This document shows, one piece after another, positions 25,025-33,900 of a stretch of DNA of 34,133 nt. The stretch comes from Chloroflexota bacterium. Lineage in GTDB: Bacteria; Chloroflexota; Anaerolineae; J102. Each line of letters starts with the position of its first letter. Position 1 is the first letter of the stretch. The translations under genes were made by a program, and so were the position numbers. The notes beneath the pieces were generated by a model that saw nothing but the letters and a program-made list of their open reading frames with translations, was not told where the DNA came from and searched no databases. Where the stretch lies: contig JAAENG010000596.1 of the NCBI GenBank assembly GCA_024224665.1, forward strand, positions 1 to 34,133, written 5' to 3'.

Positions 25025-25993
25025 TTAAGAAAATTCCGGGGCTAAAGCCTGTGCTGGCAGGATCGGACCAGAGCTTTCTTCACCATTGAGCATGCCCTGG
25101 ACATCCTCATGGCGCAACATTTTAACAAACTCGATCTGAGGGGCGATGGCAGGATGGATGTTGCTTTCCGCCATCCAGATAGTATGCGTCATGGTCACGT
25201 CTTCGATGGCAATGGCCTTTATCTTGCCCATTTGCATAAAGCGTGTGGCCGACACCCGCGGGACAAAACCGACGCCAATGCCCGCTTCGACGGCCATAAT
25301 AATAGCCTCTGAATTACCCAATTGCATGACCTGGTGTAATTCGCCGGCAGAGATATCAAGTGGGATCAGTGCCTGCATCATGGCCTGGTAGGTACCAGAA
25401 CTCTCTTCCCGCAAGATCAATCTCTCGTGTAACAGCTCATGTGCCTCGATAACATCGCGCTGGACCCAGGGGTGATCTATCGGCGCGATCAAGACAACCT
25501 CATCTTCCAAGAAGCGGTAGAATGTGACCTCCCCATGTTCGACCGGGGCACTGCTAAAAGCCACATGTACACTACGGGTGCGTAGTTGTTCTAAAACGCG
25601 GGTACGGGAGCCGACATTGATTGTCGCGCTCACGCCAGGATAGCGTTCGCAAAAGCGCGCCAACAACCTGGGCAGGATGTACTTGCCGGACGTCGTGCTA
25701 CAGCCCAGTATAAGATGTCCGACGATTTTACCGCTGAGGGAATGGGCCGTTTCTTCAAAGCGTTGCCCGCGCCTGATTAGATCGCTGGCCATGGGCAGCA
25801 GATAGGCGCCTGCCTCACTTAGAAAAACTCGACGACCCTGGCGATCAAAGAGTTTGACGCCCAATTGCCGTTCGAGTGATTGAATACGTTGGGTGACAGC
25901 AGGCTGGCTGAGATTGAGTTCCAGGGCGGCGGCAGAGAAATTCTCAAGGCGCGCTGCCGATACAAAGACTTCAAGACCTTGCCAATCGAGCAT
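25025..25993 (-). CDS. LysR family transcriptional regulator
   Basis: 'MLDWQGLEVFVSAARLENFSAAALELNLSQPAVTQRIQSLERQLGVKLFDRQGRRVFLSEAGAYLLPMA' HTH, then a substrate-binding domain. ORF track start is 26044. Confidence 0.93.
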   Translation of the reverse strand: MLDWQGLEVFVSAARLENFSAAALELNLSQPAVTQRIQSLERQLGVKLFDRQGRRVFLSEAGAYLLPMASDLIRRGQRFEETAHSLSGKIVGHLILGCSTTSGKYILPRLLARFCERYPGVSATINVGSRTRVLEQLRTRSVHVAFSSAPVEHGEVTFYRFLEDEVVLIAPIDHPWVQRDVIEAHELLHERLILREESSGTYQAMMQALIPLDISAGELHQVMQLGNSEAIIMAVEAGIGVGFVPRVSATRFMQMGKIKAIAIEDVTMTHTIWMAESNIHPAIAPQIEFVKMLRHEDVQGMLNGEESSGPILPAQALAPEFS

Positions 25994-26073
25994 GATGGGT
26001 ACTCCGCTGTGAAATGAGGGGGTGACTTCGAGGTATTGGTGCATGCCGAAAGTCGCATATTGGTGCTGCTTAA

Positions 26074-26113: not shown

Positions 26114-26230
26114 ATCATATCCAAACCATAATCAAACCTTATATACTTGTGACAGATGCAACAACATTCGAACACACGCGCTTTTGCGCGGCAAAAACAC
26201 TCACTCTTTGTAGAGGAGAATCTGAATCAC

Positions 26231-28315
26231 ATGAATACACGAAAAGTTTTAACACTCCTGATTGTGGTCTTGTTGGCCGCTGTTATGGTCAGTTGTGGTG
26301 GTGGAGAACCTGAACCGACCGCTACACCTGTTCCTCCTACTGCCACCGAGGTCCCACCGACGCCGACGCCGATCCCACCGACGCCGACGCCGGAGCCACC
26401 GACGCCGACGCCTGTTCCTCCCACGCCGACGCCTGTTCCTCCCACGCCGACACCTGTTCCCCCCACACCTGAGCCCGTAGCTGAGGCCGTCGACGCCTTC
26501 GAGGTTGTACGCCAGGCCGCTGAGGACTATGTCACCTCAGATGCCAAACCGGTTATGTCTGCTGAAGCCCTGTTCGAGAACCTGAACGATGGTGATCCCG
26601 ACAACGATCCCTTCATCATCTCGGTGCGTTCTCCTGAGCACTACGCCCTGGGCCACATTCCCGGCGCCATTAACATCCCCTGGAAAACCATTGCCAAGCC
26701 CGAGAACCTGGCGAAGATCCCCACGGATCGTCCCGTTGTCACCTATTGCTATACCGGCCACACCGGCCAGGTGGCGGCTACATCGCTGGCACTACTTGGC
26801 TACGATGTCATTAACCTCAAATTCGGCATGATGGGCTGGACTCAGGATGACGAAGTGCTGGCCACTGCTCGTTACAACCCTGAGACATCACCAGACTATC
26901 CTGTAGAAACGGAAGCCAACGAAGCGACCGAGACCTACGACCTCCCAGAATTGGCGATAGATACTGAACTACCGGACGACATCGTGCGCGCCGCCATCGA
27001 CGCCTATCTTTCCTCTGATGCCAAGCCCGTGACCACAGCAGAAGCGGTGTTCGAGAACCTGAACGATGGTGATTCTGACAACGATCCAGTCATCGTTTCT
27101 GTCCGTGGTCCCGACGATTACGGCAAGGGCCACCTCCCTGGCGCTATCAATATCCCTTGGAAGACCATCGCCGATCCCGAGAACCTGGCTAAGCTACCCA
27201 GCGACCAACCCATTGTCGTGTACTGCTACACCGGCCACACCGGTCAGCTCGCCAACACGGTCCTTTCTGTCCTCGGTTACGACGCCATCAATATGAAGTA
27301 CGGGATGATGGGCTGGACCCAGGATGATGACGTGCTGGCTACCACACGCTATAACCCCGCTACGTCGCCCGATTATCCGGTTGTTACCGACGATGCAGCG
27401 ATGAGTGCCGAGGCAGAAGTAACCAATGTCTTCGAAGATGTGCGCCAGGCGGCCGAGGATTATCTTGGCTCTGATAAAGCTCCCGTAACCAGCGCCAGTG
27501 CTCTGTTCGAGAACCTGAACGATGGTGATCCTGACAACGATCCCTTTATCCTCTCTGTGCGTGCCCCTGACGCCTACGAAATCGGACACATTCCCGGTGC
27601 GGTCAATATCCCCTGGAAGCAAATCGCTAAACCCGAAAGCTTGGCCCAACTGCCCAGCGACCAACCCATTGCTGTGTACTGCTACACTGGCCATACCGGC
27701 CAGTTGGCGACCACGGCCTTGAATCTCATGGGGTACGACGCCGTCAATCTGAAATACGGCATGATGGGCTGGACCGATGATCCCGAGGTGCTGGCAACCA
27801 AAGCCTACGATCCCGCCACGGGCGCCGACTATCCAGTCGAGACGGAAGTCAACGAAGCGACTGAGACCTACGACTATCCTGAAGTAGTCGCAGAAGATGT
27901 TCGCGCCGCCATCGATGGTTGGATCAATGGCGAAGATACAGTTGCCGTAACACCTTCCTCTGCCATTTTCGAGAACCTGAACGATGGTGATCCCGACAAT
28001 GATCCTGTCATCCTCTCGGTGCGTGCACCCGACCACTATGCAGTCGGCCACGTGCCCGGCGCTATCAATATCCCCTGGAAAACGATCGCCGATCCCGCCA
28101 ATCTGACAAAATTACCTACTGATGAACCCATCGCAGTGTACTGCTACACCGGCCACACAGGCCAGGTCGCAACTACCATTCTCGGTTCACTCGGCTACGA
28201 TGTCACCAACATGAAATTCGGGATGATGGGATGGACGCTCGACGACGAAGTACTCGGTACCGAACGTTTTGATCCCGCCAATGTCCCCGGCTACCCCACC
28301 GAAAGTGGCTCATAA
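26231..28315 (+). CDS. Lipoprotein with a Pro/Thr linker and four tandem rhodanese domains
   Basis: [25 protein letters not shown] (lipobox VSC), [12 protein letters not shown] linker, four copies of '[33 protein letters not shown]......P...YCYTGHTGQ'. Start ATG 26231 with gaggagaa upstream. Confidence 0.95.
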
Positions 28316-28372: not shown

Positions 28373-28402
28373 TGAACTCGTTTGACGAAAAGGAGCCGGC
28401 CT

Positions 28403-29932
28403 ATGGGTAGTTCTCCAAAATCCTGGTTTAGAAATCCCTGGTGGTGGTTGGTGGCGGTGCTCGTTCTGGCGCCGGCCTTAGTGCTCATCAGCCGCCCGGC
28501 AGCGTCGTCGCCAGAACCGGCGGTGGTGTCCATCACAGATGTTGTCGCTTCGGCAGTTGCTGCAGACGCCGAGCAAACGCAATCAGAGCGTTCTCAATCA
28601 GCATCCACCACGAATCAAAACCAAACAGATCAAGATGAAACCGTCAGCCAATCTGCGGACGTACCATCCTCTGACAATTGCGTCGCCTGCCATACCGACG
28701 AAGAGAAGCTCAAAGCTATCGCCGAAGAACCCGAAGAAGTCCATTCGGAAGAAGCCTCGGGTGAGGGGTGAGCGGGTGAGCTACCTCCGTTGGAGGTATG
28801 GGAGAAAGTCTTAATCGATAGCAAAAAATATTTGGAAGAAGATGTGCACGCCCAGGTCGGTTGTATCGAATGTCATGGCGGCACAAGCGACACTGATGAC
28901 AAAGAATTGGCACACGAAGGTGTTGTCGCCAAAGTCAGCGCCGATCCTATGAAAGCCTGCGGCAGTTGCCACATAGATTACGCCGTCAAGTCACAGAGCA
29001 ATATCCATCGCCTGCAGACCGGTTACCAGGATGTGTTAAGCAACCGTGGTGGTGATTTCACCGATCCCACCTTTGTCACTGCCTACAACAATCACTGCAC
29101 CTCCTGCCATGCCGATTGCGGCGACTGTCACATCAGCCGGCCCTCCGGCCTGGGTGGGGGCTTGATTTCCGGCCATAAAGTCAAGAAGATCGCATCGGTG
29201 TGGCTGACTTGCGGCGGCTGCCATAGCGCCCGAATCGCCGACGATTACCGCGGCAATCATGAGGGTATTCCTGGTGATGTACATTGGGCGAAACAGGGCA
29301 TGGTCTGCACCAAGTGTCATAACTCAGAAGATTACCACGCGCCCAGCCACGGCACCCGCTACGACGGCGCCCAAAGCCCCTCCTGCGAAGATTGCCACGA
29401 GGATATCCGTAGCGCAGCCGGCGCCATCGAACAGCACGATGACGAGCATCTTGACAAGCTCGCCTGTCAGACCTGCCATGCGGCCGGAGCATACAAGAGT
29501 TGTTTTGGTTGCCATACCGGCATCGACTCCAAGGACATCAAATTCTACAGCACCGAACCCTCGCAGATGACCTTTAAGATCGGACTCAACCCCAATCAGA
29601 GCGAGGAGAGACCTTGGGACTATGTGCTGCTTCGCCACTCACCAGGCAATCCCGAACTCTTCGATTTCTATGGTGAAAATCTGCTGCCTGACTTCGATGC
29701 TCTGCCGACCTGGAAGTACACCACCCCGCACAACACCCAGCGCAATACACCACAGAATGAGACCTGTAACGCCTGCCACGGCCAAGATGAATTATTCCTC
29801 CTCGAAGAGGATGTCGATCCTGCCCTGCGTGCAGCCAACGAGAGGGTGATCGTGCCCGAAGATCGGGTTCCCGGCTACCTGTCCGATCAACCTGCGCCTG
29901 GCGTGAGCGAGGAAGAGGAGGGTGGAACATAA
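28403..29932 (+). CDS. 11-heme c-type cytochrome interrupted by an in-frame UGA (28769-28771)
   Basis: ORF-track entries 28382-28771 and 28790-29932 are in the same frame, separated by one TGA and six sense codons. First part: membrane anchor plus CVACH. Second part: CIECH, CGSCH, CTSCH, CGDCH, CGGCH, CTKCH, CEDCH, CQTCH, CFGCH, CNACH. ATG 28403 has an aaggag RBS; the second part has no evident RBS or signal peptide. Confidence 0.8.
28782..28798 (+). promoter_or_regulatory. Stem-loop just downstream of the in-frame UGA (candidate SECIS-like element)
   Basis: tacctcc-gtt-ggaggta: perfect 7-bp stem, GUU loop; 17 nt between UGA and the loop. Confidence 0.4.
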
Positions 29933-29967
29933 TGAGTCGTGAGTGTAATTTAAATGTTCAAGGGGTA

Positions 29968-31176
29968 ATGAAGATTAAAGATTGGCCACTATCAATCTTC
30001 AGTCTTCAATCTTTAGTTTTCATCCTCCCCCTGATATGCTTGATCCTCTTCGCCACCCCAACCTTCGCCCAAGAAGACCCTACCATCACCAACGATCAGT
30101 GCATGCTCTGCCACAGTGATCCCGACCTGACCATGGTGCTACCCTCGAACGAGGTGCTGCCCCTGACAGCGGAGAGTGACACCCTGGCCCATTCGGTGCA
30201 TGTGGCAGGGGCCGAGGAGCCACTCAACTGCGTGGATTGCCACAATGATAAAACCGGTTATCCCCATGCTCCTTTCCCCAGCAATGATTACCGCAGCTGG
30301 CAGGTGCAGATGAGCCTGGTTTGCGGGAACTGCCACGAAGACCAGGCTGTCGAGCAGCAAGACAGCATGCACAGCCGCTATCTCGCGGCCGGACGCATCG
30401 AGGCCGCCACCTGCGCCGACTGCCATGGTTCACATGAAACCGATTGGGCCGATCCCGAAAAGGGTCCGGTCGGCCGTATGGCCCAGGTCGATGCTTGTGG
30501 TTCCTGCCACAGCACCATCGCCGATGAATACAAGGAATCGATCCACGGTCAGACGCTGGCAGACGGCAGCGATGATGTGCCCACGTGCAGCAGCTGCCAT
30601 CCCGCCCATCACATCGAAGACCCGCAATCGGCGGAATTTCGCCTGAAGTCACCTGAGCTTTGTGGTGATTGCCACGCCGACGATGCCATGATGTCGCATT
30701 ACGAGATCTCCACAGATGTCTTCGACACCTATGTTTCTGACTTTCACGGCACGACGGTGCAGATCTTCGAAAGCATCCAGCCGGGTGAATTCACCAACAA
30801 GGCGGTATGCAGCGACTGTCATGGCGCTCACCACATCCTGCCGGCCACCGACGAGAATTCCAGCGTGATGAAGGCCAACCTTACAGAGACCTGCCAGCGC
30901 TGCCATCCCGACGCCGGCGAGAACTTTGCCGATAGCTGGATGGGCCACTACCGCGCCAGTTGGGAGCATTTCCCCTTGGTGACCGCGGTCGAGTGGTTCT
31001 ACAGGCTGGTTATTCCCATCACCATTGGCTTCTTTGTTTCGTACATAGGTCTGGATGTAGCCCGTACCTGGCTGGATCGCAGCCGCCAGCGCAAAGAATA
31101 CCGCAGAGCACGCCGCAAAGAAGAATCGCCTGAACAAGAAGCGTCAGAACTGGAAGGAGGTGAGCGCAATGAGTAA
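29968..31176 (+). CDS. 9-heme c-type cytochrome with signal peptide and C-terminal TM helix
   Basis: CXXCH x9: CMLCH, CVDCH, CGNCH, CADCH, CGSCH, CSSCH, CGDCH, CSDCH, CQRCH. C-terminal 'LVIPITIGFFVSYIGLDVARTWL'. ATG 29968 gives MKIKDWPLSIFSLQSLVFILPLICLILFATPTFAQ; 29932 is an alternative start. Confidence 0.92.
   Translation: MKIKDWPLSIFSLQSLVFILPLICLILFATPTFAQEDPTITNDQCMLCHSDPDLTMVLPSNEVLPLTAESDTLAHSVHVAGAEEPLNCVDCHNDKTGYPHAPFPSNDYRSWQVQMSLVCGNCHEDQAVEQQDSMHSRYLAAGRIEAATCADCHGSHETDWADPEKGPVGRMAQVDACGSCHSTIADEYKESIHGQTLADGSDDVPTCSSCHPAHHIEDPQSAEFRLKSPELCGDCHADDAMMSHYEISTDVFDTYVSDFHGTTVQIFESIQPGEFTNKAVCSDCHGAHHILPATDENSSVMKANLTETCQRCHPDAGENFADSWMGHYRASWEHFPLVTAVEWFYRLVIPITIGFFVSYIGLDVARTWLDRSRQRKEYRRARRKEESPEQEASELEGGERNE
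29993..30020. repeat. Heptamer array CAATCTT CAGTCTT CAATCTT TAGTTTT inside the 9-heme cytochrome signal-peptide codons
   Basis: Four 7-nt units; also the right part of an inverted repeat with 29968-29984. Confidence 0.65.
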
Positions 31177-32278
31177 GCAAAAGGAGACTCGCACCTTCGT
31201 TCGTTTTGAACTCATACAACGGATCGAGCATTTATTACTGCTCCTTTCCTTTTCTCTGCTGGCCATCAGCGGATTACCCCAAAAATGGCCCGAAGCCTCG
31301 ATCTCGCTGTGGATCATCAATCTTTTTGGTGGCATCGAAAGCACACGTCTCATTCACCACACCTCGGCCATTGTTCTAGTCTTACTCTCGATCTTCCACA
31401 TGATCTACCTTGGCTACAAGCTCTTCGTAGAACACCGCCGCCCCAGCATGCTACCTGCCATGACGGACGTTACCGATTTCTTCCAGATGATCGCCTTCAA
31501 TCTGGGCTTCACCAAGGAACGCCCACAGATGGGCTACTTCAGCTTTGGTGAGAAAATCGAATACTGGGCCGTGGTTTGGGGTACCGTCATCATGGCTATC
31601 ACCGGCTATGTGCTGTGGAACCCTGTTGTGCTCACCAAGTACCTTCCTGGTGAGCTGGTCCCGGCCTCCAAGATGGCGCACGGTCTGGAAGCGATCTTGG
31701 CCGTGGTTTCCATCCTCACCTGGCATCTGTACAACGTCCATCTCAAATACTTTAACAAAAGTATATTCACAGGCAAGATCAGTTACCACGAGATGGAAGA
31801 GGAACATGGCGCTGTTTTGCAGGAGATCCTGAATGAAGAAGACCAGGCGCCCAGGTCAACGCCGGAGGGCCAATGGCGGCGGGCGAGGATATATCTCCCC
31901 ATCGCCGGTGTTGTGGCCGCGATCTTCCTGCTCTTCACTTACCGTTTCTTCACTATCGAAGAGACCGCCATCACCACGATTCCACCCCAACAATACGCCG
32001 AGGTCTACGTGCCGATCGCAGCGCAGGCGCTGCCAACAGCGACACCCGCTGCAGAGACGACGGCTATTGCCGAGTCTGAAATCCCACAGCAGCGCCCTCT
32101 TGCCAGTGTTGAACCCCCGGCCATCGTATCACATCCGCTGGACGAAATCAGGCAGGACTGTCTTGCCTGCCACCACGTTTACAGCATGGTGGCGCCCGCC
32201 CCCATCGAGCACGCTGAACGCACTAACGACGACTGCCAGACGTGCCATGCTGTGGCGGAGGAGGTGGCAAAGCAATGA
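31169..32278 (+). CDS. Cytochrome b-type membrane subunit (FdhI/thiosulfate-reductase-like) with C-terminal diheme extension
   Basis: 'FELIQRIEHLLLLLSFSLLAISGLPQKWP', 'RLIHHTSAIVLVLLSIFHMIYLGYKLF', 'AHGLEAILAVVSILTWHLYNVHLKYFNKSIFTGKISYHEM', then 'CLACH' and 'CQTCH'. ATG 31169 has an aaggaggtga RBS. Confidence 0.88.
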   Translation: MSKQKETRTFVRFELIQRIEHLLLLLSFSLLAISGLPQKWPEASISLWIINLFGGIESTRLIHHTSAIVLVLLSIFHMIYLGYKLFVEHRRPSMLPAMTDVTDFFQMIAFNLGFTKERPQMGYFSFGEKIEYWAVVWGTVIMAITGYVLWNPVVLTKYLPGELVPASKMAHGLEAILAVVSILTWHLYNVHLKYFNKSIFTGKISYHEMEEEHGAVLQEILNEEDQAPRSTPEGQWRRARIYLPIAGVVAAIFLLFTYRFFTIEETAITTIPPQQYAEVYVPIAAQALPTATPAAETTAIAESEIPQQRPLASVEPPAIVSHPLDEIRQDCLACHHVYSMVAPAPIEHAERTNDDCQTCHAVAEEVAKQ

Positions 32279-33900
32279 AGCATAGTGTCATGAAAGACAA
32301 ACCTCTGTTCGCTATAGGTGGCAAGTGGCAAGCAGCAAGTGGCAAGTTGGGCTCACGAGTACCTACTACCTGCCACCTGCTACCTGCCACTGTCATACTG
32401 GCCCTTCTCGTCGTACTGCTACTGCCCGGCGTCGCCAATGCGGACCCTCCAGCTCCTCACCAGTACATGCAGGAATATGAGGGGCCTCAATCGTGTGAAA
32501 CCTGTCATCTAGGAGCAGCCGAACAGATTACGCAGTCCATGCACTACACCTGGTCCGAGAAAATGGATCATTATAGCCCCATTCCCGCTACGATTTCCAG
32601 TATCAACTGGTTGGGTGTTCTCAATCCTGATATGGAGATCGCCGGAGGATGCGGGCGCTGCCACACCGGAGGTGGCGCCATGCCGGGCACGGCTGAAGCA
32701 GATACGGCAGAAGCACACGCTCAAGTTGATTGTCTAGTCTGTCATGCCGAAGTCTACGACATGAGCGCTCGTTTCCCGCAGCAGGATGAAGAGGGCAATT
32801 GGACTCTGGGTGGCGATCGTAGTTTGGCAGCAGCCCGCACGGCTGCAAGGCCCAGCGACGAAGCCTGCCTGCGCTGTCATCTTAATGCGGGCGGCGGAAA
32901 TCTGTTTGCGCGAGGCGTCGATTTAGCGCCGGTGGCGGATAAGCATGCCGAAGAATCGTATGGCGACATTCACGCCGAGCGGGGTATGGTCTGCGTCGAT
33001 TGCCACCGTGCGCCCGATCATTTGATCTATGGCTTCGCGCCGACGTTGTGGAGCCGCGACCATGAAGATGAACGCCTGCTCTGCTCCGACTGTCACGGCG
33101 AGGACCCGCATGACAACTCCCTGCTCAACCAGCACCTGCGGCTGGATTGCCGTACCTGCCATGTGCGTGAAACAGGCGGATTGGTAACCAGGGACTGGAC
33201 GGCTGAACCGGTCTACGATCCCATCAAAGAACTGTATGGCCCGGTCGATAACGTAGCCCCGCCCAACACCCTTCAATCGACCCATCTCTGGCACAATGGC
33301 GAACGCCTGATCCCCAGCGAAGGTTGGCCCGGCGAGTATGGCGATCTGAATTCCTTCATCCAACCCTTCAAGGTCTACCAAGGCACGGTGCCGGCCAACC
33401 CTAAGGACGGCAAACCCTGGCCCCTGAAGCTGGACGTTTTCTACAAAACCGGTGACCTGGAAACAGCAATGGAGGTCGGTGCTCAAGATGCCGGTCTCGC
33501 CTGGACGGGCGAATGGGAGCCCAAGACCATGGAGGTCCCGTTGCAGATCAGCCACGGTATTGTCGAAGCAGAACGCGCCTTGATGTGCCAGGATTGCCAC
33601 GTGCCTAATGGGCGCATGGACTTTGCCGCCCTCGGCTACGATGCCGAACGCATACAAATCCTCGAATCACTTTCCAGCGCCGACGCAGGCGAGGGCCAGA
33701 TGCTGCAGGTCAGCTTCGAACCCAGCGCTAATCCGGCAGCACCTCGATCCACCGATCCCATCGAGGTGGAGAATGGCGTTGAACTACCGCTCTTTGGCAG
33801 TTGGTCTCTGGTCGGCGCCTTACTGATCATCCTCCTCGTTGCCATCGTCGTAATCTGGGCGCTCATGCGCCAGCGTCAGAAACTGGCATCTGCAAGTTAG
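32275..33900 (+). CDS. 8-heme c-type cytochrome with signal peptide and C-terminal TM anchor
   Basis: CXXCH x8: CETCH, CGRCH, CLVCH, CLRCH, CVDCH, CSDCH, CRTCH, CQDCH. C-terminal 'LVGALLIILLVAIVVIWALM'. ATG 32275 overlaps the preceding TGA; ggaggaggt upstream. Confidence 0.92.
   Translation: MKHSVMKDKPLFAIGGKWQAASGKLGSRVPTTCHLLPATVILALLVVLLLPGVANADPPAPHQYMQEYEGPQSCETCHLGAAEQITQSMHYTWSEKMDHYSPIPATISSINWLGVLNPDMEIAGGCGRCHTGGGAMPGTAEADTAEAHAQVDCLVCHAEVYDMSARFPQQDEEGNWTLGGDRSLAAARTAARPSDEACLRCHLNAGGGNLFARGVDLAPVADKHAEESYGDIHAERGMVCVDCHRAPDHLIYGFAPTLWSRDHEDERLLCSDCHGEDPHDNSLLNQHLRLDCRTCHVRETGGLVTRDWTAEPVYDPIKELYGPVDNVAPPNTLQSTHLWHNGERLIPSEGWPGEYGDLNSFIQPFKVYQGTVPANPKDGKPWPLKLDVFYKTGDLETAMEVGAQDAGLAWTGEWEPKTMEVPLQISHGIVEAERALMCQDCHVPNGRMDFAALGYDAERIQILESLSSADAGEGQMLQVSFEPSANPAAPRSTDPIEVENGVELPLFGSWSLVGALLIILLVAIVVIWALMRQRQKLASAS
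32317..32390. repeat. Opposed heptamer arrays inside the 8-heme cytochrome 5' coding region
   Basis: GGTGGCA AGTGGCA AGCAGCA AGTGGCA (32317-32344) opposed by CTACTAC CTGCCAC CTGCTAC CTGCCAC (32363-32390). Confidence 0.75.

Follow-up and report, generated by a model that had tools for sequence, protein, structure and literature searches.

The in-frame UGA of an 11-heme cytochrome c gene in a Chloroflexota bacterium is very probably recoded as selenocysteine (Sec), directed by a hairpin located directly 3' of the codon. This reading is inferred from sequence alone, without protein-level data, and is based on the conservation of the UGA, the covariation of the SECIS element and the presence of tRNA-Sec and selA in the genome. 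The gene is part of a large family of 11-heme seleno-cytochromes c, which is found in three phyla and is apparently undescribed in the literature searched. Three features of the analysed stretch of DNA (34,133 nucleotides, referred to here as the window) are central:

28403–29932, + strand: predicted seleno-multiheme cytochrome c gene; 11 CXXCH motifs, 509 aa via UGA readthrough, N-terminal membrane anchor/signal
28769–28771, + strand: predicted UGA selenocysteine codon; kept at a single alignment column in Chloroflexota, Acidimicrobiia and Desulfobacterota (TGA in 78/80 GTDB loci)
28782–28798, + strand: putative SECIS hairpin tacctcc-gtt-ggaggta; 7-bp stem, GUU loop, 17 nt from UGA to loop, supported by covariation and synonymous-codon constraint

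The initial annotation had joined two ORFs (28382–28771 and 28790–29932) across the UGA, assigning a membrane anchor and one heme site to the upstream part and ten CXXCH motifs to the downstream part. Both claims held: read directly from the sequence, the ORFs share one frame (...EASGEG-U-AGELPPLEVWEKV...), with one CXXCH before the UGA and ten after it. The gene probably starts at ATG 28403, with AAGGAG 8 nt upstream, and ends with TAA at 29932; except for the TGA at 28769 the frame is continuous, without a second in-frame stop. Sec would fall between hemes 1 and 2, in a loop rich in glycine (GEGUxG), of a product which, judging from its signal anchor and c-type hemes, is predicted to reside in the periplasm or envelope. 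Elsewhere UGA is an ordinary stop, terminating 5 of the 22 window genes and also several homologs of the seleno-cytochrome gene itself.

A six-frame search of 61 genomes yielded 19 more full-length or near-full-length homologs, 18 of which contain the in-frame TGA, while the remaining one is truncated by a contig end. Alignment of 18 homologs placed the TGA at one column within the motif G-[EV]-G-U-[AG]-[GA]. Wider searches, covering 396 genomes of the window's class, a GTDB-wide scan, 247 Acidimicrobiia-related genomes and 396 Desulfobacterota-type genomes, recovered homologs of which almost all have exactly one TGA, at the same place, behind heme 1 and ahead of the nine or ten other hemes. 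A near-full-length homolog was present in about 75 of the 396 genomes of the window's class, and strong matches in 48 of the 396 genomes of the Desulfobacterota sample, and in 7 of the 247 Acidimicrobiia-related ones; the codon is also found in the complete genome of Desulfosarcina widdelii (NZ_AP021875; locus L170/L247). Dereplication left 72 UGA homologs, drawn from three phyla (Chloroflexota, Actinomycetota and Desulfobacterota). They share one UGA column within GxGU(A/G)G; a single heme precedes the UGA and about ten follow. This set was selected for the presence of TGA and its 72/72 is consequently not an independent count. One copy, L106, comes from a contig labelled Candidatus Thorarchaeota and is nested within Chloroflexota on the tree, which probably reflects a binning error.

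The hairpin was noted initially as a perfect 7-bp stem with a GUU loop, and stem, loop and spacing held as described. Folding of the single sequence was no better than that of shuffled versions of the hairpin region (z about –0.8), and comparison with relatives therefore had to decide. In the 72 dereplicated homologs, codon, spacing and hairpin are all kept. Synonymous variation drops over exactly the hairpin codons: normalised synonymous entropy at codons +5 to +8 after the UGA, the four conserved hairpin codons, is 0.00–0.19. At the 169 conserved, degenerate codon columns lying elsewhere, its mean is 0.83 and its lowest value 0.33. Five of the seven stem pairs show compensatory changes (GC/AU/CG, CG/GC, CG/AU, UA/GC and CG/AU), and 93.2% of cells are paired in the stem versus 38–52% with the partner slid, with 0/500 shuffles as high. 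Both sides of the stem are altered in 33 cells, and the covariation score is 0.404, as against 0.156 for shuffled and at most 0.195 for slid partners; the stem also covaries in a smaller set. The first base of the three-base loop is a constant G (G21), and the distance between UGA and loop is constant in the sequences analysed. From this codon constraint and covariation we infer that the hairpin very likely acts as a bacterial SECIS, although direct experimental support is not part of this inference. In divergent Desulfobacterota homologs (L260–L264 and L269–L273, with motifs such as VAGUGV and GEGUAG) the region after the UGA differs; these could represent further subfamilies.

The genome encodes a tRNA-Sec with UCA anticodon (71.6 bits) and selA (552 bits). 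In the window's metagenome-assembled genome (MAG; G000), selB was found neither by the family model nor with a relative's protein, and selD was not found by the family model. As the MAG is 91.7% complete and distributed over 628 contigs, we read this as a gap in the evidence rather than a contradiction; an assembly gap or an unusual machinery are both conceivable. Among the homolog-bearing genomes checked, selA was present in 16/16 and selD exceeded the cut-off in 13/16, the selD genes of carriers usually containing a TGA themselves, and selB was over the cut-off in 52 of 61 relatives.

Several checks proposed in the initial annotation were carried out. Alignment of homologs, in which Cys or an aligned UGA was to speak for Sec and Trp against it, gave neither Cys nor Trp but UGA nearly throughout, an unusual outcome; the hairpin is conserved and covaries in relatives, supporting a SECIS; and of the four sel genes the MAG yielded selA and selC but neither selB nor selD, which most other carriers checked do have. 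The candidate of a new Sec-containing multiheme cytochrome is consequently strongly supported by the UGA in three phyla, the covarying SECIS and the tRNA-Sec and selA of the genome.

Cys was not seen at the UGA column in any homolog found, so that the classical test of Cys/Sec pairing is unavailable; most selenoprotein families show such pairing, but it is not a requirement. The rare replacements are Trp in G079, Leu in G067, His in G271 and Tyr in G984, and G123, G073 and the second G264 copy have lost the motif. The codon of G079 is TGG; its sister species G046 and G106 retain TGA and its genome has selA and selD, and we therefore read this Trp as a secondary loss. Those non-Sec variants that were placed on the tree (G984 was left out) are scattered over several spots. 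Their genomes, G984 excluded, retain selA, and loss of Sec is therefore not explained by loss of the machinery. G264 carries two copies in one cluster, one with Sec and accompanied by a rhodanese, the other without Sec and joined to additional heme domains (L176 and L280), a pair which might have arisen by duplication and subsequent Sec loss.

The main clue to function, missed in the initial annotation, is the gene located upstream of the cytochrome:

26156–28315, + strand: four-domain rhodanese lipoprotein; Pfam Rhodanese 4e-70, 4 domains; ORF as listed, start probably further in

A rhodanese-domain gene lies within about 3.5 kb in 51 of the 53 GTDB loci having at least 0.9 kb on both sides, and in 34 of 37 further loci with short flanks from Acidimicrobiia and Desulfobacterota, versus 0/43 control loci (selA, selD, octaheme). 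In 44 clustered cases it always adjoins the cytochrome gene on the same strand, upstream or downstream depending on the lineage. Of the 53, only L132 and L142 lack it, and these two are precisely the Trp and Leu variants; the chance of this coincidence would be 1/1378 if the loci were independent, a figure which overstates the case, since both are related on the tree. Likewise, no rhodanese was found in the 8–16 kb around the non-Sec genes of G271, G123, G073 and G079. By contrast, the sister genome G046, which keeps the UGA that G079 has lost, has its rhodanese immediately upstream. In G401 and G984 (L268:2-1714 and L276:255-2405) a single polypeptide, a natural fusion, combines the 11-heme cytochrome with two rhodanese domains at the C-terminus. 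The G984 fusion has Tyr at the Sec position, and the tie between Sec and rhodanese is thus strong but not absolute. Active loops of the rhodaneses contain Cys (CYTGHT, CASGHR), and many of these proteins have a lipobox. From this genetic linkage we infer that the family is functionally tied to rhodanese.

Further neighbours in the window are:

25025–26044, – strand: LysR regulator; best match NF040786 "selenium metabolism-associated LysR", 225 bits vs. cut-off 250
29932–31176, + strand: 9-heme cytochrome c; Pfam Cytochrome_C7 and others; adjoins the Sec gene in close relatives too
31160–32278, + strand: b561-type membrane cytochrome with 2-heme C-terminal tail, FdnI-like; Ni_hydr_CYTB, formate dehydrogenase gamma-like
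32242–33900, + strand: 8-heme cytochrome with remote similarity to octaheme tetrathionate reductase; 159.9 bits with TIGR04315, whose cut-off is 375; no in-frame UGA

A LysR gene is found near the seleno-cytochrome in 26 loci; NF040786 was the best model in 7/7 tested, two of them above the cut-off. The continuation of the operon varies by lineage, featuring either an FdnI-type cytochrome b or an HmcB/FdhB-like FeS protein together with a QrcD/NrfD-like membrane protein; in the window's family it consists of the 9-heme, b561 and 8-heme cytochromes, the latter standing at the operon end. FdnI-type cytochromes b and HmcB/FdhB- and QrcD/NrfD-like proteins are typical links to the quinone pool.

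An AlphaFold model of residues 84–494 built with 72 sequences reached a mean pLDDT of 90.9, and the loop that holds Sec, between hemes 1 and 2, is modelled with confidence; an earlier run with 18 sequences (pLDDT 54) was discarded. No PDB or viral fold matched the 72-sequence model at E ≤ 0.001. Multiheme folds are, however, poorly served by such comparisons, and no new fold is therefore claimed. Eleven conserved His residues outside the heme motifs are available for eleven hemes. An obligatory role of Sec as heme ligand was considered and is thought unlikely, as these free His suffice. Sec is thus probably not a routine axial ligand and would be free to react, an inference from the count of conserved His for which direct evidence of catalysis is lacking.

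The mode of action favoured here is a hypothesis. The Sec selenol would receive sulfane sulfur, or its selenium analogue, from the adjoining exported rhodanese. Quinone-pool electrons, entering via cytochrome b or FeS/NrfD-type membrane partners, would run along the heme wire and reductively release sulfide or selenide. The substrate, the direction of electron flow and Sec as the reactive atom are all inferred, and this scheme could as well be wrong as right. A bolder reading, somewhat less likely than not, would make the family a selenoenzyme class of its own, respiratory or detoxifying: Sec, supplied with sulfane sulfur (or selenium) by a rhodanese, would stand before an 11-heme wire that reduces this to sulfide or selenide. 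This class would be common to anaerobes of three phyla, without a Cys version found so far.

The alternative that survives best accepts Sec insertion and assigns it another role: the main activity of the system could be the reduction of selenite or tellurite, the role suggested for Geobacter ExtKL, or a selenium-sensing switch could be the function of the UGA. This remains possible and is supported by the parallel to the extHIJKLMNOPQS cluster with its extI mutant phenotype (PMC5877670) and by the selenium-associated LysR neighbour. On the other hand, the 11-heme family shows no convincing homology to ExtKL, and the pairing with rhodanese suits sulfane sulfur at least equally well.

Decoding of the UGA as Trp or another standard residue, by readthrough or a changed code, is very unlikely. 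The few non-UGA homologs do have Trp, Leu, His or Tyr and never Cys, in line with this option. However, UGA terminates other genes of the window and several homologs of the same gene, the SECIS-like element is strongly constrained at the RNA level, and carriers have tRNA-Sec and SelA. The readthrough candidate of the initial annotation is thus not favoured, UGA being a normal stop and the SECIS covarying.

Two separate genes, the first for a short monoheme protein and the second for a cytochrome translated anew from TTG 28790, can be all but ruled out as well. TTG is indeed the commonest codon at this position (63 of 66 Leu codons among the 72 genes), but homologs also have CTG, TTA, GTG, GTA or GCG there, GGAGG lies downstream and not upstream of the TTG, the downstream product would lack the export signal required for heme attachment, and the codon constraint is accounted for by the SECIS stem. 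A lesion or error, whether a nonsense mutation such as TGG to TGA, a pseudogene in decay or a sequencing mistake, had been kept as a candidate by the initial annotation, which argued from the absence of other stops against an old pseudogene. It finds support only in the TGG of G079. It is practically excluded, since 78 of 80 GTDB loci, assembled independently and with the complete D. widdelii genome among them, have the same TGA, no other stop interrupts the frame, and the hairpin covaries.

With recoding to Sec as the preferred reading, standard gene callers would truncate or split the seleno-cytochrome genes. Cys homologs accompany most known selenoproteins, and a thioredoxin-like fold is frequent among them. 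The 11-heme family so far shows neither and would couple selenium to long-range electron transfer through hemes. Its linkage to rhodanese offers a testable idea for the extracytoplasmic reduction of sulfane sulfur or selenium oxyanions in sediment bacteria.

Compared with known systems, the locus resembles bacterial SECIS-directed Sec insertion by SelA/SelB/SelC/SelD in its hairpin directly 3' of the UGA, its apical loop opening with G, and the tRNA-Sec, SelA and SelD of carriers; it differs in that selB and selD were not recovered in the window's MAG. Against NCBIfam the family stayed below the cut-off of every model, and a 2026 inventory covering 119 families of prokaryotic selenoproteins does not list it (PMC13188914). 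This inventory cites Haft and Gwadz (2023) and Haft and Tolstoy (2025), and an earlier description in these two studies was excluded only via its table. Weak likeness to the Geobacter ExtM, ExtN and ExtO models in the CXXCH region (best E about 1e-12 to 1e-14) is far below the curated cut-offs, and these proteins are not described as selenoproteins in the literature searched.

The inventory lists two seleno-multiheme cytochromes, ExtKL and the TIGR04315 octaheme protein, and neither fits the 11-heme family (PMC13188914). The octaheme form with Sec (WP_331457571.1, annotated as such in GenBank; PMC13188914) is likewise a reductase-like multiheme protein whose Sec lies between hemes 1 and 2, and hhalign gave 98% over window hemes 3–10, a score that CXXCH repeats can inflate. 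TIGR04315, however, has 8 hemes and the Sec motif NNFU(I/V)xxxSNxxRCTSCH, with Cys in other members, and the Sec sites do not coincide when both families are aligned in register. Matches were weak at best (5 of 72 members, best 6.3e-6; 32 bits for L269 against a cut-off of 375 bits). Membership was therefore rejected, given scores far below cut-off, 11 instead of 8 hemes and no NNFU motif. Within the octaheme family itself, nine Desulfobacterota-type members (L219, L222, L223, L227, L229, L232, L233, L235 and L236) have TGA at this motif before heme 2 and another has Cys at that position; the Sec form looks common rather than exceptional.

ExtKL (NF040886) has 5 hemes and a C-terminal Sec in IPDGUPTPNR, whereas the window's family has 11 hemes and an N-terminal Sec in GxGU(A/G)G after heme 1. 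NF040886 matched no sequence of the 18-member and 72-member sets, and membership was rejected on this ground and on heme number, Sec position and motif; hhalign gave 57% over 40 columns only, which makes homology unconvincing. In the ExtKL loci fetched, which had short flanks, a rhodanese was found in 0/12. Nevertheless, ExtKL is likewise a Sec-containing multiheme c cytochrome split at its UGA in annotation (gsu2937-gsu2936) (PMC5877670). The Geobacter extHIJKLMNOPQS cluster further encodes the rhodanese-like ExtH, 10- and 12-heme cytochromes and a cytochrome b, and an extI mutant is impaired in selenite and tellurite reduction (PMC5877670). With a rhodanese-like protein and further multiheme cytochromes encoded nearby, the ExtKL cluster thus forms a striking functional parallel to the 11-heme family described here.
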